From Pseudomonadaceae bacterium (GTDB lineage Bacteria; Pseudomonadota; Gammaproteobacteria; Pseudomonadales; Pseudomonadaceae), in assembly GCA_019747155.1 (NCBI GenBank), contig JAIERD010000345.1, positions 1 to 38,953 of the forward strand: DNA of 38,953 bases. Direction: 5' to 3'. How positions within the stretch are numbered: the first letter of the stretch is position 1; every line of letters begins with the position of its first letter. Under the pieces are notes generated by a model. That model worked only from the letters and a program-made list of their open reading frames with translations. It was not told the DNA's origin and did no database searches. Both the position numbers and the translations under genes were made by a program. Below are positions 29,791-35,883 of the stretch, piece by piece.

Positions 29791-32157
29791 TCAAAACAAT
29801 CCCAATTGCCCGCCGATTAAGGTGGCGAAGTCGTCGCCCACGAACGGCAATATAGCGTCTGCCACTGGCTGCAGTTGGCGCGTCAGATAATGGTCGTAGT
29901 CGACGGCGGCCGTGCGTACCTCCAAAGGCTCCGGGCCGGCGAGGGTGATTACATAGCTGATCCAGCCGCCGTTCTGATACTGACGCGGTCGGCCGTGGCG
30001 GTCGTTGTAGTCGTCGGCCAGGCGCGCGGCCCGCACATGGGGTGGCACGTTACGCTGGTAGTCGGCGAGCGTGCGGCGTAGACGCTTGCGGTAGATCAGC
30101 AAGTCGTCCAGCTCGCCGGCCAGGGTGCGGCTGACAAACTCGCGGATATAGGCCTGGTAAGGCTGGCGTTGGAAAATCAGCAAATACAGCTCGCGCTGAA
30201 ATTGCTGGGCCAGCGGCGACCAGTCGCTGCGCACCGTCTCTAGGCCCTTGTAGACCATCTCCTGACTGCCGTTGGGGCGGTTGACCAAGCCGGCGTAGCG
30301 CTTTTTGCTGCCTTGCTCGGCGCCGCGAATGGTCGGCATCAAAAAACGGCAGTAGTGGGTTTCAAATTGCAGTTCCAGGGCACTGTCCAGACCGAACTCA
30401 GCCTGCAAATGCTCGCGCCACCATTGGTTGACCTTGGCTACCAGCGCCCGGCCGATGCGCGCCGCGTCGTCCTCGCCATGGGCGTGTTTGAGCCAGACGA
30501 AGGTCGAGTCGGTATCGCCATAGATCACTCCATAGCCCTCGGCCTCGATCAGCTGGCGAGTGCGGTGCATGATTTCGTGGCCGCGCAGGGTGATGGAGGA
30601 GGCCAGGCGAGTGTCGAAAAAGCGGCAACCGCTGGAGCCGAGCACGCCGTAGAAGGCATTCATAATGATCTTCAGCGCCTGCGAGAGCGGCGCGTTGCGC
30701 TCGCGTTTGGCGGTCTCGCGGCCCTGCCAGACCCGCTCGATAATCGCCGGCAAACAATGCTGGCTACGGGAAAACCGCGCGCCGCGAAAACCTGGCACCG
30801 AGTGCTCGTCGTCCGGCTGGCGCAGGCCCTCGACGAGCCCCACCGGGTCGATCAGAAAGGTGCGGATAATCGAGGGGTAGAGGCTCTTGTAGTCGAGCAC
30901 CAAGACCGATTCGTACAGGCCGGGTTGGGAGTCCATCACAAAGCCGCCGGGGCTGTTCTGCGGTGGTTTCTCGCCGAGGTTCGGCGCGACGAAGCCCTGG
31001 CGGTGCATCAGCGGTATATACAGGTGGGTAAAGGCCGCCACCGAACCGCCGCTGCGGTCGGCCGGCAGCCCGGTGACGGTGGCGCGCTCCAGCAGGAAGG
31101 TAAGGATTTCGGTCTTGGCGAAAACCCGTGTGACCAGCTCGCAGTCCTTGAGGTTGTAACGGGCAAGGGCCGGTTTATCCTCGACGAACATGCGGTCGAT
31201 TTCGTCCATGCGCTGGTAGGGCGTGGCGATGTCCTTGCCCTCGCCGAGCAGGGTCTGGGCGACGTTTTCTAGGCTGAACGAGGGGAAACTCCAAGTCGCC
31301 TCGCGCAGCGCCTCGATGCCATCGATCAGCAAACGCCCGGCGGCAGACGCGAAGTAATGCTGCTTGCGGGTGCCGTGCTCGCGCCACTGCATCTCCTCGC
31401 CGTCACGGCCCAGGCGCAACGGGATGGCCAGCCGCCGGGCATGTTCGTGCAGCACGCGCAGATCGAACTGCACCAGATTCCAGCCGATGATCGCATCCGG
31501 GTCATGCTCGGCTAGCCACTGGTTGAGTTTGAGCAAGAGTTCTTGGCGACTGTCGCAATACTCCAACTGAAAGTTCTCGGCCGCCTCCTGGCCGTTGCTA
31601 CGCCCAAGCATATACACCTGACGCTGGCCGCAGCCTTCGATTGCGATGGAATACAGCTCGCCAAAGGCGTTGGTTTCGATGTCCAGCGAGGCCAGCTTGA
31701 GCTTTGGGCGGTAGTCCGGCGCCGGCTTGATCTGCGCCTCCAGCAGCAGGCCGTTGGCGTCTGGTGTGCCGGTAAAGCTCACCGGCGCGGTAATAAAACG
31801 CTCCATCAGGTAGCGCTCGGGCGGGCGGATATCGGCCTCATAAACATCGACGCCGGCGCGGCGTAGGCGCTTGTCGAGGTCGATTAACTGCCGATGTTGC
31901 TGGCAATACAGGCCCAGCACCGGCCGCTGTTGAAAGTCGCGCAGCCCCAATGCGCGCAGCTCAATGCCCGGCTCAGCGACCAGCAGCGCCTCGGCCTCGG
32001 CCCGCTGCGCAGCCGGAATAAAGGCCACCGAGGGTTGCACGGGCAGGCGGATATGCCGCGGTCCATCATCGGTCGCTAGCCAAAACTCGATCTGCGTCCC
32101 CGCCGGCGTATCCCGCCAATGCCGGGTCAGGACAAAACCCTGCTGTAACTCCACCAC
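29791..32157 (-). CDS. polB: DNA polymerase II (family B)
   Basis: [12 protein letters not shown] exonuclease motif, [28 protein letters not shown]. Confidence 0.97.
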
Positions 32158-32289
32158 TGCAACCCCAAGGCTTACATCAGGGTGCGATTGTACGTGGCAT
32201 TGGTTGGGGATGATTGGTCGTGCTTACGCATCAATGCTGCGGTGTCATTGCATGGTTGTAATCTGTCTCCAGTTGGATACACTGCAGGC

Positions 32290-32583
32290 ATGAATGTAAT
32301 TCAGCAAACCGACACCTTTAGCCGTTGGCTCAGGGCGCTGCGTGACCTGCAAGCCAAGGCGGGCATTCTGCGGCGGCTTAGTCGCGCCCATGCGGGAAAT
32401 TTGGGTGATGTGAAGTCTGTCGGCGATGGCGTGTCGGAAATGCGCGTCGATATTGGACCGGGCTATCGACTGTATTTCACCCGACGCGGCGATGCGCTGA
32501 TTTTACTCTTGTGTGGCGGCGACAAGTCGTCCCAGGCACGCGACATTACGCTGGCCAAGCAGCTGGCAGGAGAGCTTGAATGA
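32290..32583 (+). CDS. RelE/HigB-type addiction module toxin
   Basis: MNVIQQTDTFSRWLRALRDLQAKAGILRRLSRAHAGNLGDVKSVGDGVSEMRVDIGPGYRLYFTRRGDALILLLCGGDKSSQARDI. Confidence 0.93.
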   Translation: MNVIQQTDTFSRWLRALRDLQAKAGILRRLSRAHAGNLGDVKSVGDGVSEMRVDIGPGYRLYFTRRGDALILLLCGGDKSSQARDITLAKQLAGELE

Positions 32584-32870
32584 AACCCGTGATCACTGAG
32601 TTTGATCCGTCCGATTACCTCGACAGCGACGCAATGATTGCCGAGTACCTGTCTCAGGTGCTGGCTGCAGGTGACAGCGATGAACTGATTCGCGCCGTGG
32701 GCCATGTCGCCAAGGCGCGTGGCATGGCACAGATAGCCAAGGATTCGGGGCTGGGCCGGGCCAGCCTCTACAAAGCCTTCGCCCCCGGCGCTAAGCCGCG
32801 CTTTGACACCGTGGTCAAGGTGCTGCACGCGCTGGGTGTTGAACTGCATGCCCAGCCGGTGCATGGCTGA
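32580..32870 (+). CDS. HigA-like addiction module antidote (HTH)
   Basis: 96 aa, AQIAKDSGLGRASLYKAFAPGAKPRFDTVVKVLHALGVEL; ATGA overlap with the toxin gene. Confidence 0.93.
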   Translation: MKPVITEFDPSDYLDSDAMIAEYLSQVLAAGDSDELIRAVGHVAKARGMAQIAKDSGLGRASLYKAFAPGAKPRFDTVVKVLHALGVELHAQPVHG

Positions 32871-32940
32871 GATGATGTTTTGCTTTTGCGAAGACAATAA
32901 GCAAAGAGCAAGACCAGCTCCATCTCAGGAAATACCCGTG

Positions 32941-33807
32941 CTACCTTGCTTTTTGCGGCATGCCCCTTGAATTGTTAGCGTGTGTTAATTGGAGAACAGA
33001 AATGTCTGCTCCAATTTCGTTGATGAGTGCAGGGATTGTCACGAGTTGACTGTGATGTAATTTGTCAGTCGTTTTGACCTCAACAAACCGCAGGCGGTCA
33101 TCTTTAATTAGTGTCAAGTCAGGCCATCCATTACGATGCGAATGGTCAGTAGATATCCAGTGGGCTAGCTTTTCAAAGTGCTCTTTTGGAACTGCATCGA
33201 ACAAGGCCTCCGCGAAATCTAGACTTAGTCCGGGATACCACTCTTGAGTCATGTTGTAAGAGATTATCTCTGAGAAGGCCGCCAGATACTCAGTTTTGGT
33301 CGTTTTTACAATTCGCTTGAAGACCCCTTCTAGGCGTGATTTTTCTATGTGCGATAGAACAACCACACCCTTGAGGCAGGCGTCTTCGCGTGCATCAATG
33401 CAGGTATTGTAAAAAATGCTGTTCCTTTCTAGCTCATCAAGACATAGAGCCTTTATCGCCGCGCCGAATCCACCTCCCTCGCAGTAGCTACCGATGTACC
33501 CTTGTTGGGCAAACCAGAAATGGGCATATTTCTCCGGGTGTGACGTTGACTCCCAAAGTAGGGTGCTGTGGGTGATCGCTATGGAGTTGCATTGTTTCTT
33601 CAGCGGTAGACTCTGTATCGCCGTAATCCTTCCAAGTGTCGTGAGGCGAGCGTCTTCGTCTACGAGCCCTCGCGCAGCTAATGCCTTAACCATAGCCGTG
33701 CTCACCTTTGATAGTGCGTGGGCTTCGTGCAAACCCCGTAAGGCTTTGAGCATATTTATGGATAATTGTTTGCTCATCTTTAGTGTGTTGCCCTTAGTGT
33801 TAACCAT
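32941..33807 (-). CDS. putative nuclease: N-terminal winged-helix-like region plus C-terminal VRR-NUC-like PD-(D/E)xK domain
   Basis: NGWPDLTLIKDDRLRFVEVKTTDKLHHSQLVTIPAL (D230, E243, K245) fits G-x-PDL...(E)VK...Q; alternative start MSKQL at 33777. Confidence 0.7.
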   Translation of the reverse strand: MVNTKGNTLKMSKQLSINMLKALRGLHEAHALSKVSTAMVKALAARGLVDEDARLTTLGRITAIQSLPLKKQCNSIAITHSTLLWESTSHPEKYAHFWFAQQGYIGSYCEGGGFGAAIKALCLDELERNSIFYNTCIDAREDACLKGVVVLSHIEKSRLEGVFKRIVKTTKTEYLAAFSEIISYNMTQEWYPGLSLDFAEALFDAVPKEHFEKLAHWISTDHSHRNGWPDLTLIKDDRLRFVEVKTTDKLHHSQLVTIPALINEIGADISVLQLTHANNSRGMPQKAR

Positions 33808-33870
33808 TAAGTTAACGCTTGAGTAAAGGGGTCGGGAAAAAGTGTGTGTGTTTGCCGATTTTTTACTAGA

Positions 33871-34542
33871 TCAATTAATAGATATTTTAATTTGCTGTGA
33901 AATATATTCTATTCCGATAGCGTGCAGTGCTACAAACTCATCGTGCACTGAGTCGCACATGGATGAAACCGAGTCAGATACGTCTTTAATTTTTGCTTCT
34001 GAAGCTCCGGTTTTGCATTCTTTTATCTTCTCATGCATGATATTAATTTTATCGATTACAGCGCTTTTTATTTTGTTGGGGCTAAATTCTGGTTTGGTCT
34101 CTTCCTTTGAATCTAAAAATAATGCAGAGGACGCCCAAATAAATTTATATCGTGCAAATAAAATAATTATCTTTGATTCAAGCTCATTTTTGTATTTTTC
34201 TAGATCTTTAAAGTCTTCTTTGTTGTTTGAGTCGGCCCACAAGCGGCAGTAATCTTTTAAGCATATCAAATAAGAGCGGCACACATCCATGTCGCTAAAC
34301 CCCTCAAGCAGTCGCTCAAGAGACTCATATCGTTTGGTGTTGGAGAATTGAATTTTCCATGTGATAACGGCCCAAGAGGCAGTAATTGCCGCAATAACAG
34401 TGGCAATGTTGGCTGTGGCGGAAATTATTTCTTTTCCGTCAAAAATTGCTGATATAAATATAGGGCTCCATATGACTCCGCATGCAAATAACATGAGGCA
34501 TACAATCCAGGTAAAAAATACTCCGGTTCCATTCATGATCAA
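33871..34542 (-). CDS. hypothetical two-TM membrane protein with hydrophilic/coiled-coil-like C-terminus
   Basis: Two hydrophobic segments (VFFTWIVCLMLFACGVIWSPIF; IISATANIATVIAAITASWAVITW) then charged region; AT-rich DNA. Confidence 0.7.
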   Translation of the reverse strand: MIMNGTGVFFTWIVCLMLFACGVIWSPIFISAIFDGKEIISATANIATVIAAITASWAVITWKIQFSNTKRYESLERLLEGFSDMDVCRSYLICLKDYCRLWADSNNKEDFKDLEKYKNELESKIIILFARYKFIWASSALFLDSKEETKPEFSPNKIKSAVIDKINIMHEKIKECKTGASEAKIKDVSDSVSSMCDSVHDEFVALHAIGIEYISQQIKISIN

Positions 34543-34654
34543 AGCTCTCCATTTTTTTTATATTGTAAGGTTGGGGGTTTGCATCATCTAGTGCAATTAT
34601 TTATGCAGCAGGCACGCATCCAATCAAGGCTTCGCGGGTTGCCCCGCCCTACGA

Positions 34655-35041
34655 TCAGCGCCCGCCAAAGCGCCCCGCCAACGCCAGCCAGGCCAGCAGC
34701 GGATAGCAAAAATAATGCAGGCCGAAGATCACCAAGCCCATGGGGCTGGGGTCGTCTTTAAACGCCATCAGCGCCAGCAAGCCCAGGTAGAGCAAGGCCA
34801 GCACGCCGCCGTAGACGCCGAGCAGGCGTAGCCGTTCGCCGGGCATTGGGGCGCGGCGTTGTTGCGCGAAAAACCACAGGGCCATGCCGCCGGCGACTGT
34901 GGCGGCTATTACCAGAGTGGTCAGTACGCCGCCGAGCTTGCTGAAGGTGCGCAGCAGCAGGTTGAGCACGATGACGGCGGCGACGCCGCTTAGGGCCAGG
35001 CGGCTAACGGGGACGCGGTTTGCTGTGGCTGGCTCGTTCAT
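34655..35041 (-). CDS. hypothetical multi-TM membrane protein
   Basis: 128 aa with hydrophobic helices (LALSGVAAVIVLNLLLRTF; LGVYGGVLALLYLGLLALMAF). Confidence 0.7.
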   Translation of the reverse strand: MNEPATANRVPVSRLALSGVAAVIVLNLLLRTFSKLGGVLTTLVIAATVAGGMALWFFAQQRRAPMPGERLRLLGVYGGVLALLYLGLLALMAFKDDPSPMGLVIFGLHYFCYPLLAWLALAGRFGGR

Positions 35042-35052
35042 CGGTTGTGCTC

Positions 35053-35883
35053 CTATAGGCTGCGATTGAGGCCAAAGCGTTTTTTCAGTACGGCTTGCAG
35101 CAGGCGCTTGGGGATCAGGGCGGCCATTAGCGGCAGGGCGCGGCTGCCGTTGCCGATGCGCAGCAGGCCGGGGCGTTGTTTACTTTGTACTGCGGCCAGT
35201 ACCTGGCGGGCAAAGTGCTCGGCGGGGGTTGGGTGGTCTTGCGAGGCGTTGGCACGGGCGCGGATGCCGTCGCGGATCGGCCACCAGGGCGAGGCTTCAT
35301 CGATTAGTTGTTCGGCTTGCTGGCTGGCGTTGGCGCCAAAGCTTGAGGCAATCGCACCGGGTTGGACTTCCATGACCTCGATGGCAAAAGGCGCCAGCTC
35401 CATGCGCAAAGCATCGGACAGTGCATGCACGGCGGCCTTGGAGGCGCACTAAGCGCCGGCGAACGGGGTGACCAGCACGCCGGAGACGCTACCGATATTG
35501 ATCAGCAAACCACGGCTGCTGCGCAGCAGCGGGAACAGTGCGCGGGTGACGTCGACAATGGCGAACACGTTGGTGTCGAACTGGCGGCGCAAGGCCTCGA
35601 CGCCGCCATCGAGCAGCGGCCCCATGGCACCGTAGCCGGCGTTGTTGATCAGCACATCGAGGCGCCCGGCTTCGAGCTGCAGACGCATGGCCAATTGGCT
35701 GACGGCCAGGCTGTCGTTGACATCCAACTCCACGCCGACAAAGCCGGCGGCGTTCAGCGCTTCAATATCCTCGGCTTTGCGCGCGGTGGCCCAGACCTGA
35801 TAACCGGCCGCCTTGAAGGCATCGGCAAGGGCGCGGCCGATGCCGCTGGAACAACCGGTAATCAGGGCGGTGGGCTGGGTCAT
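35053..35883 (-). pseudogene. short-chain dehydrogenase interrupted by an in-frame TAG at the catalytic Tyr codon
   Basis: ORFs 35449..35883 and 35053..35430 share one frame; junction reads P-F-A-G-A-[TAG 35451..35449]-C-A-S-K-A-A-V-H-A-L-S-D-A-L-R-M-E-L, i.e. Y-C-A-S-K with Y replaced by amber. Confidence 0.88.

Follow-up and report, generated by a model that had tools for sequence, protein, structure and literature searches.

The window analysed here, a stretch of 38,953 nucleotides, is contig C618 of a Pseudomonas draft genome (79% complete, 621 contigs). Between polB and the genes for a small membrane protein and an SDR-family protein it contains a variable slot, in which a toxin-antitoxin pair is followed by a short AT-rich islet with two genes. 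The features discussed below are as follows.

32156..34683, no strand assigned: variable slot between polB (29791-32157) and the small membrane protein/SDR genes (34655-35883), delimited by blastn and the ORFs of locus L090
32293..32583, plus strand: toxin of the RelE/ParE superfamily, HI1419 type (TIGR02683, 1.1e-38); 58% G+C; outside the islet
32580..32870, plus strand: antitoxin, HI1420 type (TIGR02684, 9.6e-34; Pfam dnstrm_HI1420, 8.5e-43); 62% G+C; outside the islet
32941..33807, minus strand: predicted VRR-NUC/FAN1-type nuclease, here called mini-FAN1, 288 aa from the first ATG (Pfam VRR_NUC, 7.5e-5)
33613..33774, minus strand: optional N-terminal winged helix-turn-helix, residues 12-65 (AF2 helices 17-27, 37-45 and 57-65; alignment)
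32983..33540, minus strand: FAN1-type nuclease domain, residues 90-275 (invariant residues; hhalign to full-length Pseudomonas FAN1)
33478-33480 (E110), 33118-33120 (D230), 33079-33081 (E243) and 33073-33075 (K245), minus strand: predicted catalytic residues
33871..34542, minus strand: two-TM protein with a long helical C-terminal part, 223 aa (AF2; putative prophage accessory-gene family)

An AT-rich islet in a variable slot

The islet (32941-34542) consists of two co-directional ORFs on the minus strand with 63-93 bp between them. Its G+C content is 42.9%, compared with 60.8 +/- 2.0% (minimum 55.7%) in 678 sliding windows of the same size covering the remainder of the 39-kb contig. Positions 34141-34200 contain 12 G/C per 60 bp, whereas no 60-bp stretch outside the islet has fewer than 21. 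The same contrast is seen at third codon positions, where GC3 is 51% in the nuclease gene and 38% in the membrane-protein gene, against 77-81% in three flanking genes (polB, a mannose-1-phosphate guanylyltransferase-like gene and the small membrane protein gene). An earlier reading of this DNA, made from the sequence only, had described two same-strand genes 63 bp apart, an abrupt drop in composition with 12 G/C at 34141-34200, and DNA of foreign appearance; each of these points was reproduced. Convincing repeats, an attC-like site, a tRNA and Rfam elements were searched for at the islet ends and none was found, nor are there recognisable prophage genes around the membrane-protein gene in the window.

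A blastn search with the window identified a syntenic relative, G014 (L090), in which polB and the SDR/small membrane protein genes are kept and different genes lie between them: a 698-aa gene resembling a U32/YegQ-type peptidase and a solute-binding-protein-like gene (names assigned by eye). The slot is therefore regarded as variable. The SDR-family gene that borders it (35053-35883, minus strand) has an in-frame amber codon (TAG) in place of the catalytic Tyr of its YxxxK motif (FAGA*CASK), where its counterpart in G014 (L090:5462-6292) is intact; the TAG may reflect a pseudogene, an assembly error or a recent mutation.

The toxin-antitoxin pair (32293-32870) is arranged with the toxin first and is convergent with the nuclease gene. 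The sequence-only reading had named it HigBA and had used it as context for a defence cassette. A toxin-first module is indeed present, but its best models (TIGR02683 and TIGR02684) are of the HI1419/HI1420 type, with a match of the toxin to Gp49 falling just under the Pfam cut-off. With a G+C content of 58-62%, the pair is not linked to the islet by composition, and the convergent orientation together with the host-like composition rules it out as a member of the islet unit and removes it as context for a cassette. A toxin-antitoxin pair of the same type is also found 0.7 kb downstream of a nuclease homologue in a Nitrosomonadaceae bin (L032:11498-12082), which we take to be chance.

A predicted FAN1-type nuclease without SAP or TPR

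The first ATG of the nuclease gene gives a protein of 288 aa. Homologues begin at the second Met, so that the true start is more likely at 33777, giving 278 aa. Only VRR_NUC and NOV_C were matched in a Pfam scan of the 288-aa product, the former with a score of 23.2 bits (cut-off, 23.8), and SAP, TPR and FAN1_HTH were not detected in it. Within the nuclease family alignment, VRR_NUC is matched at E<=0.1 by 34 of the 38 sequences.

FAN1 is a human DNA-repair nuclease and a modifier of Huntington's disease. The profile of the nuclease family matches FAN1 chains in the PDB (E=4e-7) over the whole nuclease domain and, within the order, ORFs of about 400-560 residues (E down to 5e-13), which are presumably FAN1 orthologues. 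Alignment with full-length Pseudomonas FAN1 by hhalign covers residues 90-273 (probability 92%, E=6e-7). Eight residues are invariant in all 38 family sequences (E92, E110, R225, G227, W228, D230, E243 and K245), and four of them, E110, D230, E243 and K245, align with the catalytic positions of full-length FAN1.

A PD-(D/E)xK or VRR-NUC-like nuclease with a winged-helix-like N-terminus had been proposed in the sequence-only reading, which suggested AlphaFold modelling of both islet proteins. For the nuclease, the AF2 model (pLDDT 92.4, pTM 0.88) predicts a PD-(D/E)xK fold. When compared with the PDB by Foldseek, all 23 matches at E<1e-3 are FAN1, either human or from P. aeruginosa, and the next match has E=0.19; with the invariance of D230, E243 and K245 this upholds the nuclease assignment. 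The TM-scores of the FAN1 matches are 0.49-0.55 on the query and the rmsd is high, and therefore either the domain arrangement differs or only parts of the structures superpose. The winged helix is likewise modelled with confidence (pLDDT about 89-96 over residues 11-60), and by alignment it is carried by 16 of the 38 family members. Its derivation from FAN1_HTH as a relict was considered and rejected, as it has no sequence support (hhalign to the N-terminal part of FAN1, probability 0.2%).

Before the PD motif the model contains two helices, 196-205 and 208-220, and the profile alignment pairs this segment with the VRR-Nuc segment of FAN1. The dipeptide between the helices is [ILVM]-[GPD] in 28/38 sequences and strictly I/L/V-G/P in 16/38. 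We propose that these helices correspond to the FAN1-type two-helix insertion with an I/L-G/P dipeptide, to which Pennell et al. ascribed the flap specificity of FAN1 as a monomer (PMC4103454). Because the PDB fold matches are all FAN1, the catalytic positions are kept in 38 homologues and the helices before the PD motif align, the window protein is classed, from sequence and model, as a nuclease-domain-only "mini-FAN1" (a name coined here) that lacks SAP and TPR and has an optional N-terminal winged helix. No published description of such a family was found in a literature search that lay mostly outside subscription journals.

Mini-FAN1 is, judging from its genomic distribution, a rare and horizontally moving family. 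Besides the window copy it occurs in 4 of 299 other Pseudomonas genomes, while full-length FAN1, scored by a FAN1_HTH match, occurs in 98 of 100. Scanning genomes yielded 41 loci spread over many phyla. The phyla are intermixed in the mini-FAN1 tree, in which metagenome bins, especially the "Crenarchaeota" row, may carry a wrong assignment. The loci are in AT-rich neighbourhoods: G+C is lower than in the flanks for the gene itself at 29 of 38 loci (Wilcoxon p=3e-5) and for its 1-kb surroundings at 32 of 38 (p=1.7e-6). Amongst 5,426 E. coli genomes there are three copies, each on a 3.7-kb MOBP plasmid (L007), where mini-FAN1 is the sole evident cargo beside genes for relaxase, mobilization and replication-like functions. 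In P. hygromyciniae the gene is carried by a conjugative plasmid of 249,868 bases (G052:C2). Decayed copies are found in Halomonas and in Glaciimonas, the latter with 82% identity at the DNA level across 338 bp. In IMG/VR a single distant relative was found, on viral contig L055 next to a portal-like gene, and 50,697 phage records contained no mini-FAN1 match.

Two local arrangements are worth noting. In Pseudomonas G191 (L002/L010) mini-FAN1 lies beside an interrupted ComM/YifB-like gene (recognised by eye); genes of this type are a known target of genomic islands. In Erythrobacter (L046-L048) the protein carries a long extension at its N-terminus (555 aa in total), and its gene directly follows an AbiEi/AbiEii-type pair.

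The nuclease might instead serve the window strain as a back-up in crosslink repair, replacing a missing full-length FAN1. The genome in question has neither a FAN1_HTH match above cut-off nor a VRR_NUC family match, unlike the 98 of 100 Pseudomonas genomes with FAN1_HTH. It is, however, a 79% complete assembly in 621 contigs, so that the absence of full-length FAN1 is unproven; furthermore, the carriers G030 and G052 possess both full-length FAN1 and mini-FAN1, and the low G+C content and patchy distribution of the family are unlike those of a housekeeping gene. We consider this minor rival explanation very improbable.

A prophage-type membrane protein and its relation to the nuclease

The upstream gene of the islet may start at the ATG at 34536. 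Its product had been read as a membrane protein with a long charged tail, and the AF2 model of this two-TM protein is all-helical (pLDDT 83), with no Foldseek match in the PDB below 1e-3. Weak relatives were found in 9 of 299 other Pseudomonas genomes and, when a relative was used as the query, in phage Atpa001; two IMG/VR contigs also carry them. Identity in the alignment is 17-23% over the full length. The genes around the relatives, inspected by eye, include integrases, cytosine methyltransferases, YqaJ-type exonucleases, recombinases and reverse transcriptases, and the loci L106-L114, L122 and L124 are in early regions of prophage type. In all ten clear cases (L106-L110, L112-L114, Atpa001 and L124) the gene is opposite in strand to the flanking early genes, and at 12 of 12 loci it is AT-richer than its surroundings. 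Since inversion relative to early genes and elevated AT content are the signature of prophage accessory genes, the family is assigned by sequence and context to this class (putative "morons").

The sequence-only reading had interpreted the two islet genes as a small defence or abortive-infection cassette. In tblastn and profile searches, about 44 nuclease loci yielded no membrane-protein relative, and 12 membrane-protein loci yielded no nuclease relative. A conserved two-gene defence cassette is not supported by this result. Because the relatives never co-occur, the islet is better explained by two independent acquisitions, and a local functional pair may exist in the window, as adjacency and shared strand leave room for it.

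In a genuine cassette, the membrane protein would sense infection or hold the nuclease at the membrane, and the nuclease would destroy incoming or host DNA in a manner resembling RexAB. The shared strand, the short spacing and the AT-richness of both window genes are consistent with such a unit, and pairs of membrane and cytosolic proteins are known from prophage defence (CarolAnn gp43/gp44, PMC6426606). Several nuclease homologues adjoin genes matching ThsB, FRG/PDC-S15, PDC-S14, AbiEii or Dsr1. In Crenothrix an unrelated two-TM protein (L045:9376-9951) is encoded 32 bp upstream of mini-FAN1, which resembles the layout of the window genes and is best treated as a lead only; the membrane-family HMM did not detect this protein. 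Against the cassette stand this failure of detection, the lack of co-occurrence on either side, and the absence of any recurrent partner gene family around the nuclease. On this evidence a genuine cassette is unlikely.

The genomic neighbourhood was also examined for defence genes. Neither the window nuclease nor the membrane protein matched PADLOC-DB 2.0.0 at E<=1, and relatives of the islet proteins gave stray matches only (E>=0.017). Amongst 28 hand-picked genes adjacent to nuclease homologues, matches of defence type comprised the five named above and SAVED-HNH, and these neighbours look like defence-rich mobile DNA. Local enrichment of defence islands at the nuclease was rejected. PADLOC families/ORFs, a crude measure inflated by helicases, were 240/143 near the nuclease and 227/135 at 5.5-10 kb away, thus of equal density, and only moderately above a housekeeping sample (106/94). 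The neighbourhood analysis suggested by the sequence-only reading therefore does find defence-type genes near nuclease homologues, yet not more densely than farther away, and a defence role of the nuclease is for this reason plausible but unproven.

Proposed roles and comparison with known systems

Taken together, we favour as the probable explanation that the islet comprises two independently acquired accessory genes of mobile elements, a mini-FAN1 and a prophage-type membrane protein, which came to lie in a variable slot and do not constitute one cassette. Mini-FAN1 appears to retain the nuclease core of FAN1 with all catalytic positions and, by alignment, also the segment proposed for the monomeric state. 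We infer from sequence and model that it cleaves DNA and what it prefers as substrate: acting as a metal-dependent monomer, as FAN1 does, it would cut DNA with flaps or branches, for instance intermediates of replication or recombination. In those family members that have it, the winged helix would contribute to DNA binding or to regulation. The two-TM protein would most likely be expressed from a lysogen and work in the inner membrane, with superinfection exclusion as one example of a role. That either gene acts against viruses is plausible but speculative.

As to why mini-FAN1 travels as cargo, we propose that it is kept because its cutting would harm competing mobile DNA, by attack on the replication intermediates of phages or plasmids. 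This role seems most likely, with the processing of branched DNA of its own element as the main alternative. The wider idea, that mini-FAN1s are mobile single-gene anti-phage or anti-plasmid nucleases in which the FAN1 core has been reused across phyla against branched intermediates of invading DNA, including as the sole cargo of small plasmids, is put forward tentatively.

The main alternative is that the nuclease is a selfish or helper enzyme of repair and recombination, which resolves the branched intermediates or flaps of the plasmids and phages that carry it and has no defence role. Its position as sole evident cargo of a mobilizable 3.7-kb E. coli plasmid would suit such an enzyme; the copy beside a portal-like gene in L055 fits phage replication or packaging equally well, and those VRR-NUC proteins that are known from phages cut junctions (PMC4103454). 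On the other hand, there is no conserved link to replication genes, many mini-FAN1 copies sit in AT-rich patches of chromosomes, and the phage records searched contained no match. We regard a pure helper role as rather doubtful, and retain attack on competing mobile DNA as the preferred reading.

If the assignment is correct, the mini-FAN1 family would reveal which parts of FAN1 suffice for flap cutting, and it could be used to test the idea that flap specificity in the monomer is set by the helical insertion and not by the SAP/TPR platform. With the copy on the 3.7-kb E. coli plasmid, these questions can be addressed in laboratory strains. Mini-FAN1 may also add a single-gene defence factor. 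The membrane-protein family, with its inverted position in prophages of Pseudomonas, offers a concrete candidate for superinfection exclusion.

Amongst known nucleases, the closest comparison is with FAN1 and PaFAN1 (the KIAA1018 subfamily of VRR-NUC). The predicted nuclease fold, the catalytic Glu, the PD-(D/E)xK and Gln positions and the helices before the PD motif can all be aligned. Mini-FAN1 differs in being half as long, with no detected SAP, TPR or FAN1_HTH, and in having a winged helix of its own in part of the family; it is also rare and mobile, whereas FAN1 is core. The standalone VRR-NUC proteins of phages and bacteria (psNUC, stNUC and saNUC) are dimeric junction-cutting enzymes (PMC4103454) and have the PD-(D/E)xK core in common with mini-FAN1. 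They are single-domain proteins of roughly 90 residues (about 90-120 aa for the type) without the FAN1 insertion, whereas mini-FAN1 has about 210-290 aa, an upstream catalytic helix and a FAN1-like N-terminal part; the match between a psNUC-type chain (4qbn) and mini-FAN1 is marginal (E=0.095 by profile, E=0.92 by Foldseek).

The TseV effectors of the T6SS are VRR-Nuc antibacterial toxins and provide a precedent for the use of VRR-Nuc catalysis in conflict (PMC9635880). The window nuclease differs from them in that Pfam finds no PAAR-like N-terminus, this part being a winged helix in the AF2 model, and a Pfam scan of the adjacent products identified no T6SS or DUF3396 immunity gene. RexAB-like prophage exclusion, as in CarolAnn gp43/gp44 (PMC6426606), resembles the islet in that a membrane protein is encoded beside a cytosolic protein and in that the membrane-protein family is prophage-borne. 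It differs in that the window genes are not co-conserved and that the CarolAnn system includes no nuclease (PMC6426606).
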